Part shown: positions 16,987-51,266 of the stretch, piece after piece | How the letters are laid out: each line of letters starts with the position of its first letter | Position numbering within the stretch: the first letter of the stretch is position 1 | From: Mesorhizobium sp. 113-3-3 | GTDB lineage: Bacteria > Pseudomonadota > Alphaproteobacteria > Rhizobiales > Rhizobiaceae | Reading direction: 5' to 3' | DNA: 64,000 nt | NCBI RefSeq assembly: GCF_016756495.1 | Contig: NZ_AP023243.1 | Span: forward strand, 372,001 to 436,000 | Notes under the pieces: model-generated | Seen by the model: only the letters and a program-made list of their open reading frames with translations | The model's database searches: none | Told to the model about the DNA's origin: nothing | Program-made: the position numbers and the translations under genes

Positions 16987-17439
16987 CTACTCGGCCCCGC
17001 ACGATACCTTGCCTGTTAACTCCACCGGCTTGCCCTCCTTCTCCGTGTCGGCGGCATTGTCGTAGACGGCAAGCGTGTACTGGCCGTCATAGACGCCTTC
17101 GTCGCTGGCCTTGGTCAGGATCGTCAGTTCGACCGAATTGAAGGCGTTTGCCACCTCGTGCTCGTGGTAGATGTTCAGCCGCAGTTCCTTGTCGTCGAGC
17201 CAGTACTGAGTCAGGTTGGAATCCTCGAACACCGTCTTGCGCAATCCATCGCCAGCCGGTCTCGCCTTGATTTCGAGATCGCCGCGGAAGTTGAAGGTCG
17301 GGCCGCCCATGCCCCTGGTGACGCCGGCGCCGACGTCGAATGTCACCGCCGTATCGTCGACGTTGCACCAGATGCCGCCCGAGGCGAAGGCCGCGCCGGT
17401 CGAGACCAGAAGCATTGCCGCGCAGATGATCGTGCGCAT
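16987..17439 (-). CDS. Exported small protein of unknown function
   Basis: A 150-residue protein with a clear Sec signal (MRTIICAAMLLVSTGAAFA). The mature region is mostly beta-strand-like, with one cysteine near each end (GGIWCNVDD and GKVSCGAE), probably a disulfide in the periplasm. Start 17439 is preceded by GGGGGAACACAAAA. I do not recognise the family. It is monocistronic and convergent with the MarR gene. Confidence 0.65.
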   Translation of the reverse strand: MRTIICAAMLLVSTGAAFASGGIWCNVDDTAVTFDVGAGVTRGMGGPTFNFRGDLEIKARPAGDGLRKTVFEDSNLTQYWLDDKELRLNIYHEHEVANAFNSVELTILTKASDEGVYDGQYTLAVYDNAADTEKEGKPVELTGKVSCGAE

Positions 17440-20392: not shown

Positions 20393-20459
20393 CGACAGGA
20401 TGGGCGGCGATCACTTTTTTCGCCGCCTATGTCAAATGAGGTAGCGCGGCAGGGTTTCA

Positions 20460-20474
20460 GAACATATCATGAAC
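20460..20474 (+). promoter_or_regulatory. Alphaproteobacterial SOS (LexA) box
   Basis: GAACATATCATGAAC is an exact GAAC-N7-GAAC direct repeat, the LexA site of alphaproteobacteria (GTTC-N7-GTTC on the other strand). It ends 2 bases before the ATG of the radical SAM gene. Confidence 0.8.
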
Positions 20475-20476
20475 GA

Positions 20477-21712
20477 ATGAGCGCTCTCATCGTCCGTGAA
20501 AAGTTGGCAATCCTGTCCGATGCCGCCAAATATGATGCTTCCTGCGCCTCATCCGGCTCGGCGAAGAAGGATTCACTTAAATCCGGCGGCATCGGTTCCA
20601 CCGAAGGCATGGGCATCTGCCATTCCTACGCACCGGACGGCCGCTGCATTTCGCTGCTGAAAATCCTGCTCACCAATTTCTGCATCTATGATTGCAGTTA
20701 TTGCATCAACCGCTCGTCCTCGAATGTGAAGCGCGCCCGCTTCAGCATCGATGAGGTGGTGAAGCTGACCATGGATTTCTACCGGCGCAACTATATCGAG
20801 GGACTGTTCCTGTCCTCGGGCGTCATCCGCTCGCCGGATGAAACCATGGGCGAGATGGTCGAGGTGGCGCGGCGGCTGCGGCTGGAGGAAAAGTTCTCCG
20901 GCTATATCCATCTGAAGACCATTCCGGAAAGCTCTGCCGAACTGGTCGAGAAAGCCGGCCTTTATGCCGACAGGCTGTCGATCAATGTCGAACTGCCGAC
21001 CGATGAAGGCGTCAAGAAACTGGCACCGGAAAAGAAGCCCGAAACCATCCGCCTTTCGATGGCCAGGCTGCGCCAGAAGATGGAGGAAAAGGCCGAGCCG
21101 ACGCTGAGGACCAAGAAGCGCGAGCGCTTCGCGCCCGGCGGCCAGTCGACGCAGATGATCGTCGGCGCCGACAAGACATCCGATGACGGCATATTGCACA
21201 CCAGCGCGCGGCTCTATGGCAGCTATCATCTGCGCCGCGTTTACTACTCGGCCTTCAGTCCGATACCGGACTCCTCGTCGTCCCTGCCGCTGCAGAAACC
21301 GCCGCTGATGCGCGAACACCGGCTTTATCAGGCCGACTGGCTGATGCGGTTCTATGGGTTCTCGCAGCCGGAAATCCTGGCCGGGAGCAGCGACGGCATG
21401 CTCGACCTTGCCATCGACCCCAAACTCGCCTGGGCGCTACGCAATCGCGGGCAGTTCCCGGTCGACGTGAACCGGGCAGACCGCGAGGCCCTGCTGCGCG
21501 TGCCCGGCCTCGGCACCAAGGTGGTGGCGAAAATCCTGGAGACCCGCCGGCACCGAAGGCTGCGGCTTGAAGATGTCGGGCGGATTTGCCAGTCGATCGC
21601 CAAGCTCAGGCCGTTCATCATCGCCGAAGGCTGGTCGCCGGGAACGCTCACCGACAAGCCGGGCTTGCGCGACAAGATCGTGCGCTCCTGCGAACAACTT
21701 TCGCTGTTTTGA
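20477..21712 (+). CDS. Putative DNA modification/repair radical SAM protein (TIGR03916 type) with C-terminal HhH
   Basis: A 411-residue radical SAM enzyme. The cluster motif is CIYDCSYC (CX3CX2C, about residues 76-83). The C-terminus carries a helix-hairpin-helix (DVNRADREALLRVPGLGTKV), a DNA-binding motif. Start 20477 gives MSALIVREKLAILSDAAKY. The frame upstream is open to 20429 but would cross the SOS box. The next gene starts 2 bases after the stop. This pair recurs in aerobic bacteria; the chemical reaction on DNA is not established. The LexA box predicts induction by DNA damage. Confidence 0.85.
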   Translation: MSALIVREKLAILSDAAKYDASCASSGSAKKDSLKSGGIGSTEGMGICHSYAPDGRCISLLKILLTNFCIYDCSYCINRSSSNVKRARFSIDEVVKLTMDFYRRNYIEGLFLSSGVIRSPDETMGEMVEVARRLRLEEKFSGYIHLKTIPESSAELVEKAGLYADRLSINVELPTDEGVKKLAPEKKPETIRLSMARLRQKMEEKAEPTLRTKKRERFAPGGQSTQMIVGADKTSDDGILHTSARLYGSYHLRRVYYSAFSPIPDSSSSLPLQKPPLMREHRLYQADWLMRFYGFSQPEILAGSSDGMLDLAIDPKLAWALRNRGQFPVDVNRADREALLRVPGLGTKVVAKILETRRHRRLRLEDVGRICQSIAKLRPFIIAEGWSPGTLTDKPGLRDKIVRSCEQLSLF

Positions 21713-21714
21713 CC

Positions 21715-23184
21715 ATGCGGCCGGCCGAGCTCAATCTTGTCCGATACAGTGTCAGGCTTGAAAGCGAAACCGACTTTTCGGGCTGGCGCGACGCGGCACG
21801 GCGGCTGGCGTTGAACGAGATCAAGCCCGAAGACATCAGCTGGCATGTCGCGGCCGATTCAGACCGGCGTCCGAGTGATTTGCCGACTGTGCCTGCCGGC
21901 GCACAACTGGCGGTACCGCGCGATTTCATCGCGCGTGCCGAGACCGCCTTCTGCCATTCTGACCCCTCCCGGTTCGCCTTTCTCTACCGGCTGCTGTGGC
22001 GGCTGCGTAGTGAGCCCAAGCTGCTGGCGATCGCATCCGATCCCGACACCAGGCGGCTCGAGGCGATGGAAAAGGCGGTGCGGCGCGACAGCCACAAGAT
22101 GCACGCCTTCGTCCGCTTCCGGAAGATCGGCGAAGGTAACGACGAGCGTTATGTTGCCTGGTTCGAGCCCGATCATTTCATCGTCGAGCGCAATGCGGAT
22201 TTCTTCGTCAGGCGCTTCACCGGCATGCGCTGGACGATCCTGACGCCTTACGCTTCCGCCGACTGGGACGGCGAAAGGCTGGCGATCGGGCCGGGCGCGG
22301 CCAAGGGCGATGCGCCTGATCAGGACGATACCGAGGCGCTGTGGCGCACCTATTTCGAGAACATCTTCAATCCGGCGCGGCTGAAGGTGAAGGCCATGCA
22401 GAAGGAGATGCCGAAGAAATATTGGCGGAACCTTCCCGAGGCCTCGCTCATTCCAGATCTGATCGCAGGAGCGGACAAGGCCGCCAAGGAAATGATCGCC
22501 AGAATGCCGACAACGCCCGCACCGCATCACGCCAAGGTGCAGGCAAAGCATTGGCCCAGGCGTGAACCGACACAATCGCCGAATGATGACGACGCCGGCA
22601 GCATTTCAGAGTTGCGCGAGGCCGCGAAAGGCTGCCGCCGCTGTCCGCTTTGGCGCGATGCGACGCAGACCGTGTTCGGCGAAGGGCCTGACAATGCGAA
22701 GGTCATCTTCGTCGGCGAACAGCCCGGCGACCAGGAGGATCTCGCCGGCAAACCTTTCGTCGGCCCCGCCGGCAAGGTGTTCGACGCCATCCTCGATGAC
22801 GCTGGCGTGGACCGGCAAAAGGTCTACGTCACCAACGCGGTCAAGCACTTCAAATTCGAGCCGCGCGGCAAGCGCCGCATCCATTCCAAACCGAATGCCG
22901 GCGAAGTACAGGCCTGTCGCTGGTGGATCGACCGGGAATTCGCGCTGATCAAGCCGGAGCTAGCCGTGGCGCTCGGCGCAACGGCTGCCTTGTCATTGCT
23001 GGGTAAAGCTATTCCGGTGACGAAAATGCGCGGCCAGGTGATCGAGCGCGAGGATGGGCTGAGGGTTTTCATCACCATCCACCCGTCATTTATCCTGCGC
23101 ATTCAGGAGCCGGCGGAGAAGGAAGCCGAGCGAGAGCGGTTTTTGCAGGATATGAGAGAGGTGAAGCGGCTGATGGCCGCGTGA
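21715..23184 (+). CDS. DUF4130 (TIGR03915) - UdgX fusion, uracil-DNA cross-linking glycosylase
   Basis: A 489-residue two-part protein. Residues 1-260 match DUF4130 (RDSHKMHAFVRFRKIGEG, then VAWFEPDHFIVERNADFF and MRWTILTPYASADWDG). After a linker of about 30 residues, 295-489 is a family-4-like uracil-DNA glycosylase with GEQPGDQEDLAGKPFVGPAG, the UdgX-specific KRRIH loop (His390) and IHPSFILR. In M. smegmatis UdgX the loop histidine bonds covalently to the abasic sugar. The ATG at 21715 lies 2 bases after the radical SAM stop. It should act on uracil in DNA, under SOS control. Confidence 0.88.
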   Translation: MRPAELNLVRYSVRLESETDFSGWRDAARRLALNEIKPEDISWHVAADSDRRPSDLPTVPAGAQLAVPRDFIARAETAFCHSDPSRFAFLYRLLWRLRSEPKLLAIASDPDTRRLEAMEKAVRRDSHKMHAFVRFRKIGEGNDERYVAWFEPDHFIVERNADFFVRRFTGMRWTILTPYASADWDGERLAIGPGAAKGDAPDQDDTEALWRTYFENIFNPARLKVKAMQKEMPKKYWRNLPEASLIPDLIAGADKAAKEMIARMPTTPAPHHAKVQAKHWPRREPTQSPNDDDAGSISELREAAKGCRRCPLWRDATQTVFGEGPDNAKVIFVGEQPGDQEDLAGKPFVGPAGKVFDAILDDAGVDRQKVYVTNAVKHFKFEPRGKRRIHSKPNAGEVQACRWWIDREFALIKPELAVALGATAALSLLGKAIPVTKMRGQVIEREDGLRVFITIHPSFILRIQEPAEKEAERERFLQDMREVKRLMAA

Positions 23185-23227
23185 TCTGGTTGTCGGTCGG
23201 CGCCGGCCTCATTGCCCTGCCGGGCAT

Positions 23228-23370
23228 TTCTCCCCGTATAGTGACGGGGAGAAAGACGCTGTCTTCGCGCTTTCGCCAATCGTCGGCGTCTCAAGAAGGT
23301 TGCAAAGGCGCACCTAGCTCCCTTCTCCCCGTCACTATACGGGGAGAAGGTGCCGGCAGGCGGATGAGGG
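23228..23370. repeat. Rhizobial palindromic mosaic repeat
   Basis: Two copies of a self-complementary 26-base hairpin (TTCTCCCCGT and its complement around a TATAGTG-type loop) lie inverted at 23228-23253 and 23323-23348. GGCAGGCGGATGAGGGGC follows. It fills the gap between the convergent udgX-fusion and glycerate kinase genes. The same hairpin and tail occur at 51160-51266. Confidence 0.8.
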
Positions 23371-51159: not shown

Positions 51160-51266
51160 CTCATCCGCCTGCCGGCGTTCGTCGGACGAAAAGCCAAGCA
51201 GTTGGCTTTTCGTCCGCCGCGCGGACCACTCCTCAACTCCCCGTATAGTGACGGGGAGAAGGGAGA
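51160..51266. repeat. Palindromic mosaic repeat before the ECF sigma gene
   Basis: The stretch starts with CCCCTCATCCGCCTGCCGGC, an inverted copy of the tail of the 23228 element. It then has a perfect 14-bp hairpin GGACGAAAAGCCAA/TTGGCTTTTCGTCC and ends with the CTCCCCGTATAGTGACGGGG hairpin. The rest of the 50983-51321 gap holds a second AAAAGCCAA/TTGGCTTTT hairpin at 51004-51025 and no gene. Confidence 0.8.

Follow-up and report, generated by a model that had tools for sequence, protein, structure and literature searches.

The 64,000-nucleotide window analyzed here (the whole stretch of Mesorhizobium sp. 113-3-3, contig NZ_AP023243.1, positions 372,001 to 436,000) contains a compact two-gene operon that encodes a radical S-adenosylmethionine (SAM) protein and a fusion of DUF4130 with UdgX, a domain of the uracil-DNA glycosylase (UDG) superfamily. 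The operon is preceded by a predicted LexA box and, as detailed below, appears to belong to the SOS response. The features of the locus are:

20460..20474, plus strand: predicted LexA (SOS) box GAACATATCATGAAC, of the GAAC-N7-GAAC type, at a conserved position
20477..21712, plus strand: radical SAM protein of 411 amino acids with a C-terminal helix-hairpin-helix (HhH)-like region, family rSAM_link_UDG (TIGR03916)
21715..23184, plus strand: DUF4130-UdgX fusion protein of 489 amino acids (family profile matches)
21760..22443, plus strand: DUF4130 (TIGR03915) domain, fusion residues 16-243 (NCBIfam match)
22447..23163, plus strand: UdgX domain (TIGR03914), fusion residues 245-483 (NCBIfam match and alignment with 6AJO)
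22870..22884, plus strand: codons of the KRRIH R-loop, including H390 (motif reading and 6AJO alignment)

The coordinates and family matches agree with the layout described in the first-pass annotation, namely the box, then two bases, the radical SAM gene (ATG at 20477), another 2-base gap and the fusion gene (ATG at 21715). An alternative in-frame start of the radical SAM gene is present at 20429 and was rejected because it would place the box inside the gene and because relatives are without that start. Many of the 41 loci from the order (see below) have no in-frame start further upstream, and the ATG at -48 is missing in Mesorhizobium erdmanii (locus L218), the nearest named relative of the window; the start at 20477 is therefore favored.

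An exact match to GAAC-N7-GAAC by itself carries no weight because the bare pattern occurs at chance level: the eight fixed bases were found twice in the window, with 1.48 matches expected, and 189 times in the genome, compared with 206 matches for the reversed control pattern. The second match in the window, at 17173 on the minus strand, was set aside as a likely chance match. We searched for the exact pattern between -120 and +15 of the radical SAM start in an order set (41 loci, which represent every genome over the cut-off among the 199 searched) and in a named set (the best 80 of at least 583 relatives, with titles that all read as alphaproteobacteria). The exact box precedes the gene in 39 of the 41 and in 77 of the 80 loci, and at the remaining five it is one mismatch off; the in-gene controls gave 0/41 and 0/80, and the reversed-pattern controls 1/41 and 2/80. 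The consensus of the aligned boxes is GAACATA-N4-GAAC, and many of the rows from Rhizobium and Agrobacterium show a TTGAC that starts some 16 bases upstream of the box. The box probably overlies the -10 region, in which case the transcript would be nearly leaderless.

In a third set of 63 loci from a sample of the phylum, with some genomes present twice, the exact GAAC box was found in 40; of the other 23, 22 lie outside the alphaproteobacteria and one, L076, duplicates the place of L163. The LexA box of gammaproteobacteria is of the type CTG-N10-CAG, and this pattern is located within -60 to +15 of the start in 19 of the 22 non-alphaproteobacterial loci, several of which are close kin; in-gene windows gave 2/220 and the reversed pattern 0/22. 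The radical SAM gene stays beside whichever LexA box type its lineage uses. Such conservation of position combined with a lineage-specific box type indicates that the box is real, unlike a bare pattern match, and from these comparisons the operon is very likely regulated by LexA. Two of the non-alphaproteobacterial loci (L192 and L193, family f80) share a palindrome-like sequence, TCTCATCCAATGAGA, just upstream of the radical SAM start, where LexA boxes otherwise stand; this may be another LexA motif.

The host genome provides an illustration of the candidate regulon, as opposed to an enrichment test. The refined pattern GAACRWANNNNGAAC has 18 matches in this genome versus 5 for reversed controls, and the genes near these sites encode two DNA polymerases IV, UvrA, ParE, a RecD2-like helicase, a PA0069 radical SAM protein, an SRAP peptidase and an ImuA-like protein that scores 52.6 bits where the cut-off is 150; YifB adjoins a looser GAAC-N7-GAAC box. 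This list comes from 19 loci, one of which is the operon studied here and 8 of which were outside the protein scan; the 10 scanned proteins were picked by eye as likely SOS genes, and one of them (L310) matched no family. Together with the conserved position and the lineage switch of the box, these consensus sites support, as a prediction, the LexA control that had been proposed from the window.

The co-occurrence of the three domains was analyzed in a single sample of 299 Pseudomonadota genomes with profile cut-offs, which were exceeded by the radical SAM protein in 72 genomes, by DUF4130 in 75 and by UdgX in 70. The radical SAM protein is accompanied by DUF4130 in all 72 genomes, but 16 of the 72 encode no UdgX over the cut-off anywhere, and UdgX occurs without the radical SAM protein in 14 genomes. 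Caulobacter vibrioides, one of the control genomes, matches all three families. Among the pairs without UdgX, 9 of the 10 in alphaproteobacteria retain the exact GAAC box and the last differs from it by one mismatch; outside the alphaproteobacteria, 13 of 14 have the CTG-type box. At none of the 11 standalone UdgX loci (L175, L176, L178, L179 and L183-L189) does a GAAC-N7-GAAC box lie closer than 800 bases to the start of the open reading frame, and CTG-N10-CAG was found within 500 bases in only one of them, inside the reading frame. Given that standalone UdgX is without the box and that pairs without UdgX keep it, the SOS link belongs to the radical SAM-DUF4130 pair and not to UdgX as such.

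A quick tree of 107 rows of the radical SAM protein, in which 36 of the 104 inner branches are open, implies 10 changes of UdgX state, at least 8 of them on starred branches. For the named rows of this tree, absence of UdgX means that none was found in the approximately 4 kb behind the gene; L288, where the contig ends behind the gene, was omitted in one count and assigned UdgX in the other, with 10 changes in both. The constant company of DUF4130 and the dispensability of UdgX indicate that the radical SAM protein and DUF4130 form the core of the system, with UdgX as an accessory that has come or gone some 8-10 times. In two loci (L190 and L191), approximately 3 kb of apparently unrelated genes are located between the radical SAM and DUF4130-UdgX genes.

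The radical SAM protein matches TIGR03916 with 564.3 bits (cut-off 343.5) and also matches the Pfam Radical_SAM family. Its CX3CX2C motif reads CIYDCSYC (C69, C73 and C76), and these cysteines are invariant in 169 of 169 aligned rows, as are three further cysteines, C23, C48 and C57. In a structure search, the closest folds for the core were HydE and the biotin and lipoyl synthases. Spore photoproduct lyase is not among the fold matches listed for the core (50 rows), an absence that excludes nothing, and NCBIfam and Pfam scans of the operon proteins at E-values up to 0.001 yielded no spore photoproduct lyase or SplB family. The genome encodes a single protein of this radical SAM family and four UDG superfamily members including the UdgX of the operon.

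For DUF4130, the matches are also well above the thresholds (TIGR03915, 214.1 bits versus 112.25; Pfam DUF4130, 137 versus 27). The AlphaFold2 model of the domain, with a confidence score (pLDDT) of 89, resembles DHH/DHHA1 proteins (RecJ/Cdc45) in structure matches, a likeness that is suggestive only. Assignment to DHH by sequence was rejected: hhalign against 9 RecJ sequences gave a probability of 0.1, with shallow profiles on both sides (effective sequence numbers, Neff, of 3.7 and 3.0), and Pfam families other than DUF4130 each hit at most 5 of the 63 members, with a best E-value of 0.013. There is no DHH metal-binding motif in the fusion protein of the window and no such triad among the invariant columns of the 63 members. 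From the predicted structure, DUF4130 is possibly a divergent DHH/DHHA1-like fold in which no catalytic motif is evident. Locus L200 (genome G440) encodes a second DUF4130-UDG fusion, which is divergent (29% identity in DUF4130) and has no radical SAM neighbor in the stretch examined.

The UdgX domain matches TIGR03914 with 332 bits (cut-off 189.95) as well as Pfam UDG, and its best solved relative is 6AJO (E-value 3.9e-52; residues 2-186 of the query piece aligned). The characteristic motifs are present, namely GEQPG (residues 334-338), KRRIH with H390, and HPS (residues 456-458). In agreement with the first-pass annotation, the R-loop is intact, and by alignment H390 is the expected nucleophile, the counterpart of H109 of MsmUdgX. 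Motif B reads HPSFILR, in which HPS and R are kept and the middle departs from the published HPS(S/A)(L/V)(L/V)R; many relatives among the fusions vary likewise. By analogy with family 4 UDGs, C307, C310, H378 and C401 are candidate Fe-S ligands. We read 106 DUF4130-UdgX fusions from the 121 order and named loci (15 were dropped, with no UdgX or an unread frame): the R-loop pattern is present in 104 of them, and 18 have neither the CxxC pair nor the third Fe-S cysteine and retain the R-loop histidine (e.g., L041, L043 and L068). One fusion (L255) is without CxxC only, and three (L273, L277 and L289) were left unclassified. Judging from these patterns, loss of the UdgX Fe-S cluster among the fusions is apparently all-or-none.

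The radical SAM gene is found on 158 of 72,556 plasmid records, with Phaeobacter (58) and Paracoccus (15) in the lead; these records annotate the matches as 'putative DNA modification/repair radical SAM protein' and 'UdgX family uracil-DNA binding protein'. We rejected an origin in phages or defense systems: neither operon protein matched a PADLOC family at E-values up to 0.01 or a PHROGs family at E-values up to 0.001, and the matches at two viral-contig loci and in 10 of 50,697 phage records, some of which are short pieces, are not enough to call the system phage-borne. One of the viral loci, L295 (an IMG/VR contig), carries a full radical SAM gene with 63% identity and an exact box just before it, and no DUF4130 match was found within the 777 bases behind the gene; this could be a mis-filed cellular contig. 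Around the operon itself, an inverted repeat, GGCGGCG...CGCCGCC, is located at 20403-20427 between the box and the upstream gene, which by eye looks like glutamine synthetase, and this repeat may separate the two transcripts. Behind the operon is a repeated palindromic element (23207-23369) with inverted-repeat arms that contain CTCCCCGTATAGTGACGGGGAG; a third copy is located at 51237-51258.

The kind of operon and its SOS control are already known, which the first-pass annotation had missed. The operon of the window is a member of the linked NCBIfam families TIGR03916, TIGR03915 and TIGR03914, with all three matches over the cut-offs and no difference from them. We take COG4277 to be the rSAM_link_UDG protein. 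SOS control of a COG1573-COG4277 operon, which likewise consists of two genes and includes a uracil-DNA glycosylase, has been described in Bacteroidetes, with mention of a similar SOS system reported earlier in Verrucomicrobia and Alphaproteobacteria (PMC8565304). The accessible portion of that article names the operon putative base excision repair and does not name DUF4130, crosslinking by UdgX or the dispensability of the glycosylase. DUF4130, SplB-like radical SAM proteins and uracil-DNA glycosylases have been connected in PMC3765255, the available part of which gives for DUF4130 neither a fold nor partner statistics, in contrast to the DHH/DHHA1-like hint and the partner counts reported here. 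UdgX itself is treated in PMC10359453 and PMC10776899; the Mycobacterium smegmatis protein (6AJO; PMC10359453) has GEQPG, KRRIH and HPS in common with the domain described here, which differs, as far as the accessible text shows, in that it follows DUF4130 within a fusion and is encoded downstream of a predicted LexA box. A radical SAM protein is also listed in the SOS regulon of Gram-positive bacteria and Balneolaeota (PMC7739468); the portion available names no family for it, and we make no use of it. The literature searched yielded nothing that pairs UdgX with radical SAM proteins and nothing on SOS, UDG and HhH in Caulobacter, and within it the chemistry of the radical SAM protein and DUF4130 is undescribed, as the first-pass annotation had supposed. 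Relative to this literature, the additions made here are the UdgX type of the glycosylase, its dispensability, the counted lineage-specific box switch and the fold hint for DUF4130.

On these grounds we lean, with a little better than even confidence, toward an SOS-induced two-gene DNA-damage operon in which the radical SAM-HhH protein and DUF4130 form a core that acts on damaged DNA by radical chemistry, with UdgX as an optional component; repair or alteration of damaged DNA by such chemistry is the most likely function of the pair. LexA bound to the box before the start codon would repress the operon, and DNA damage would release it through RecA-driven cleavage of LexA. The HhH end of the radical SAM enzyme would hold the DNA, and the [4Fe-4S]/SAM center would generate a radical that reverses or alters the damaged nucleotide, with DUF4130 as the standing partner, most likely a non-catalytic domain that holds DNA or presents the substrate. 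UdgX, a third tool fused on in the lineage of the window, would remove uracil and cap the site covalently via H390, and this cap might protect abasic sites during the work of error-prone SOS polymerases. In a more elaborate version, which we offer tentatively and consider less likely than not, DUF4130 would be a catalytically silent, reduced DHH/DHHA1 (RecJ/Cdc45-like) domain that grips single-stranded DNA while a radical SAM-HhH enzyme with a second, auxiliary Fe-S cluster acts on it. Next to spore photoproduct lyase, the pair would then be a second system that reverses DNA lesions by radical chemistry, LexA-driven across Pseudomonadota, with a self-sacrificing UdgX cap repeatedly recruited and lost.

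Several observations weigh against the favored reading. HHH_3 in the radical SAM protein is below the Pfam threshold (23.9 versus 27), and no structure or sequence match points to a DNA substrate for the core. Neither LexA box type was found upstream of the radical SAM gene at three non-alphaproteobacterial loci (L163, L192 and L193), and the operon is patchy, being over the cut-off in three of nine genomes of the host genus. The pairing is also not strictly two-way: in three genomes (G195, G176 and G155; loci L180, L181 and L182), DUF4130 occurs without the radical SAM protein, with the box kept approximately 160-220 bases before DUF4130 or DUF4130-UdgX. In another genome (G123, locus L177), a deletion leaves the box 21 bases before UdgX with a DUF4130 remnant, the radical SAM gene being gone; these four loci are natural deletions of the radical SAM gene behind a retained box.

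The alternative that survives best, itself improbable, is that the radical SAM enzyme modifies DNA instead of repairing lesions, for instance by inserting sulfur or carbon via an auxiliary cluster; SOS control suits damage better than constitutive modification, and residues 23-45 of the model have pLDDT under 50, so that the cysteine geometry is not fixed by it. Next, and also unlikely, is ordinary SOS base excision repair, in which the glycosylase clears what error-prone polymerases leave behind, be it uracil or misincorporated nucleotides; the presence of a UDG superfamily domain and the published naming as a putative base excision system (PMC8565304, as far as available) are in its favor, but the glycosylase is of the UdgX type (Q in GEQPG; R and H in the R-loop), which according to the accessible part of PMC10359453 crosslinks rather than turns over, and it is missing from 16 of the 72 genomes with the pair. 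A single sequential pathway, in which a covalent UdgX-DNA adduct formed at uracil is processed or released by the radical SAM protein and DUF4130, was the proposal of the first-pass annotation, and it comes third and is unlikely. The fusion of DUF4130 to UdgX within one operon and the co-occurrence of the radical SAM protein with UdgX (Fisher p 1.2e-32, relatedness ignored) are compatible with it, but it is weakened by the genomes that encode either without the other, by the 8 or more state changes of UdgX and by the lack of GAAC-N7-GAAC boxes at all 11 standalone UdgX loci. A chance match without damage control of the operon would agree with the chance-level frequency of the bare pattern in window and genome, but it is highly improbable given that position, consensus and lineage-specific box type are all conserved.

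The radical SAM-DUF4130 pair, with its candidate damage control, is present in 72 of the 299 Pseudomonadota genomes sampled, roughly one in four. The core reaction is best sought in strains that have the pair and no UdgX, the capture reaction in strains that have UdgX alone. If the radical enzyme indeed acts on DNA, it would join the very few radical SAM enzymes known to have such a substrate.
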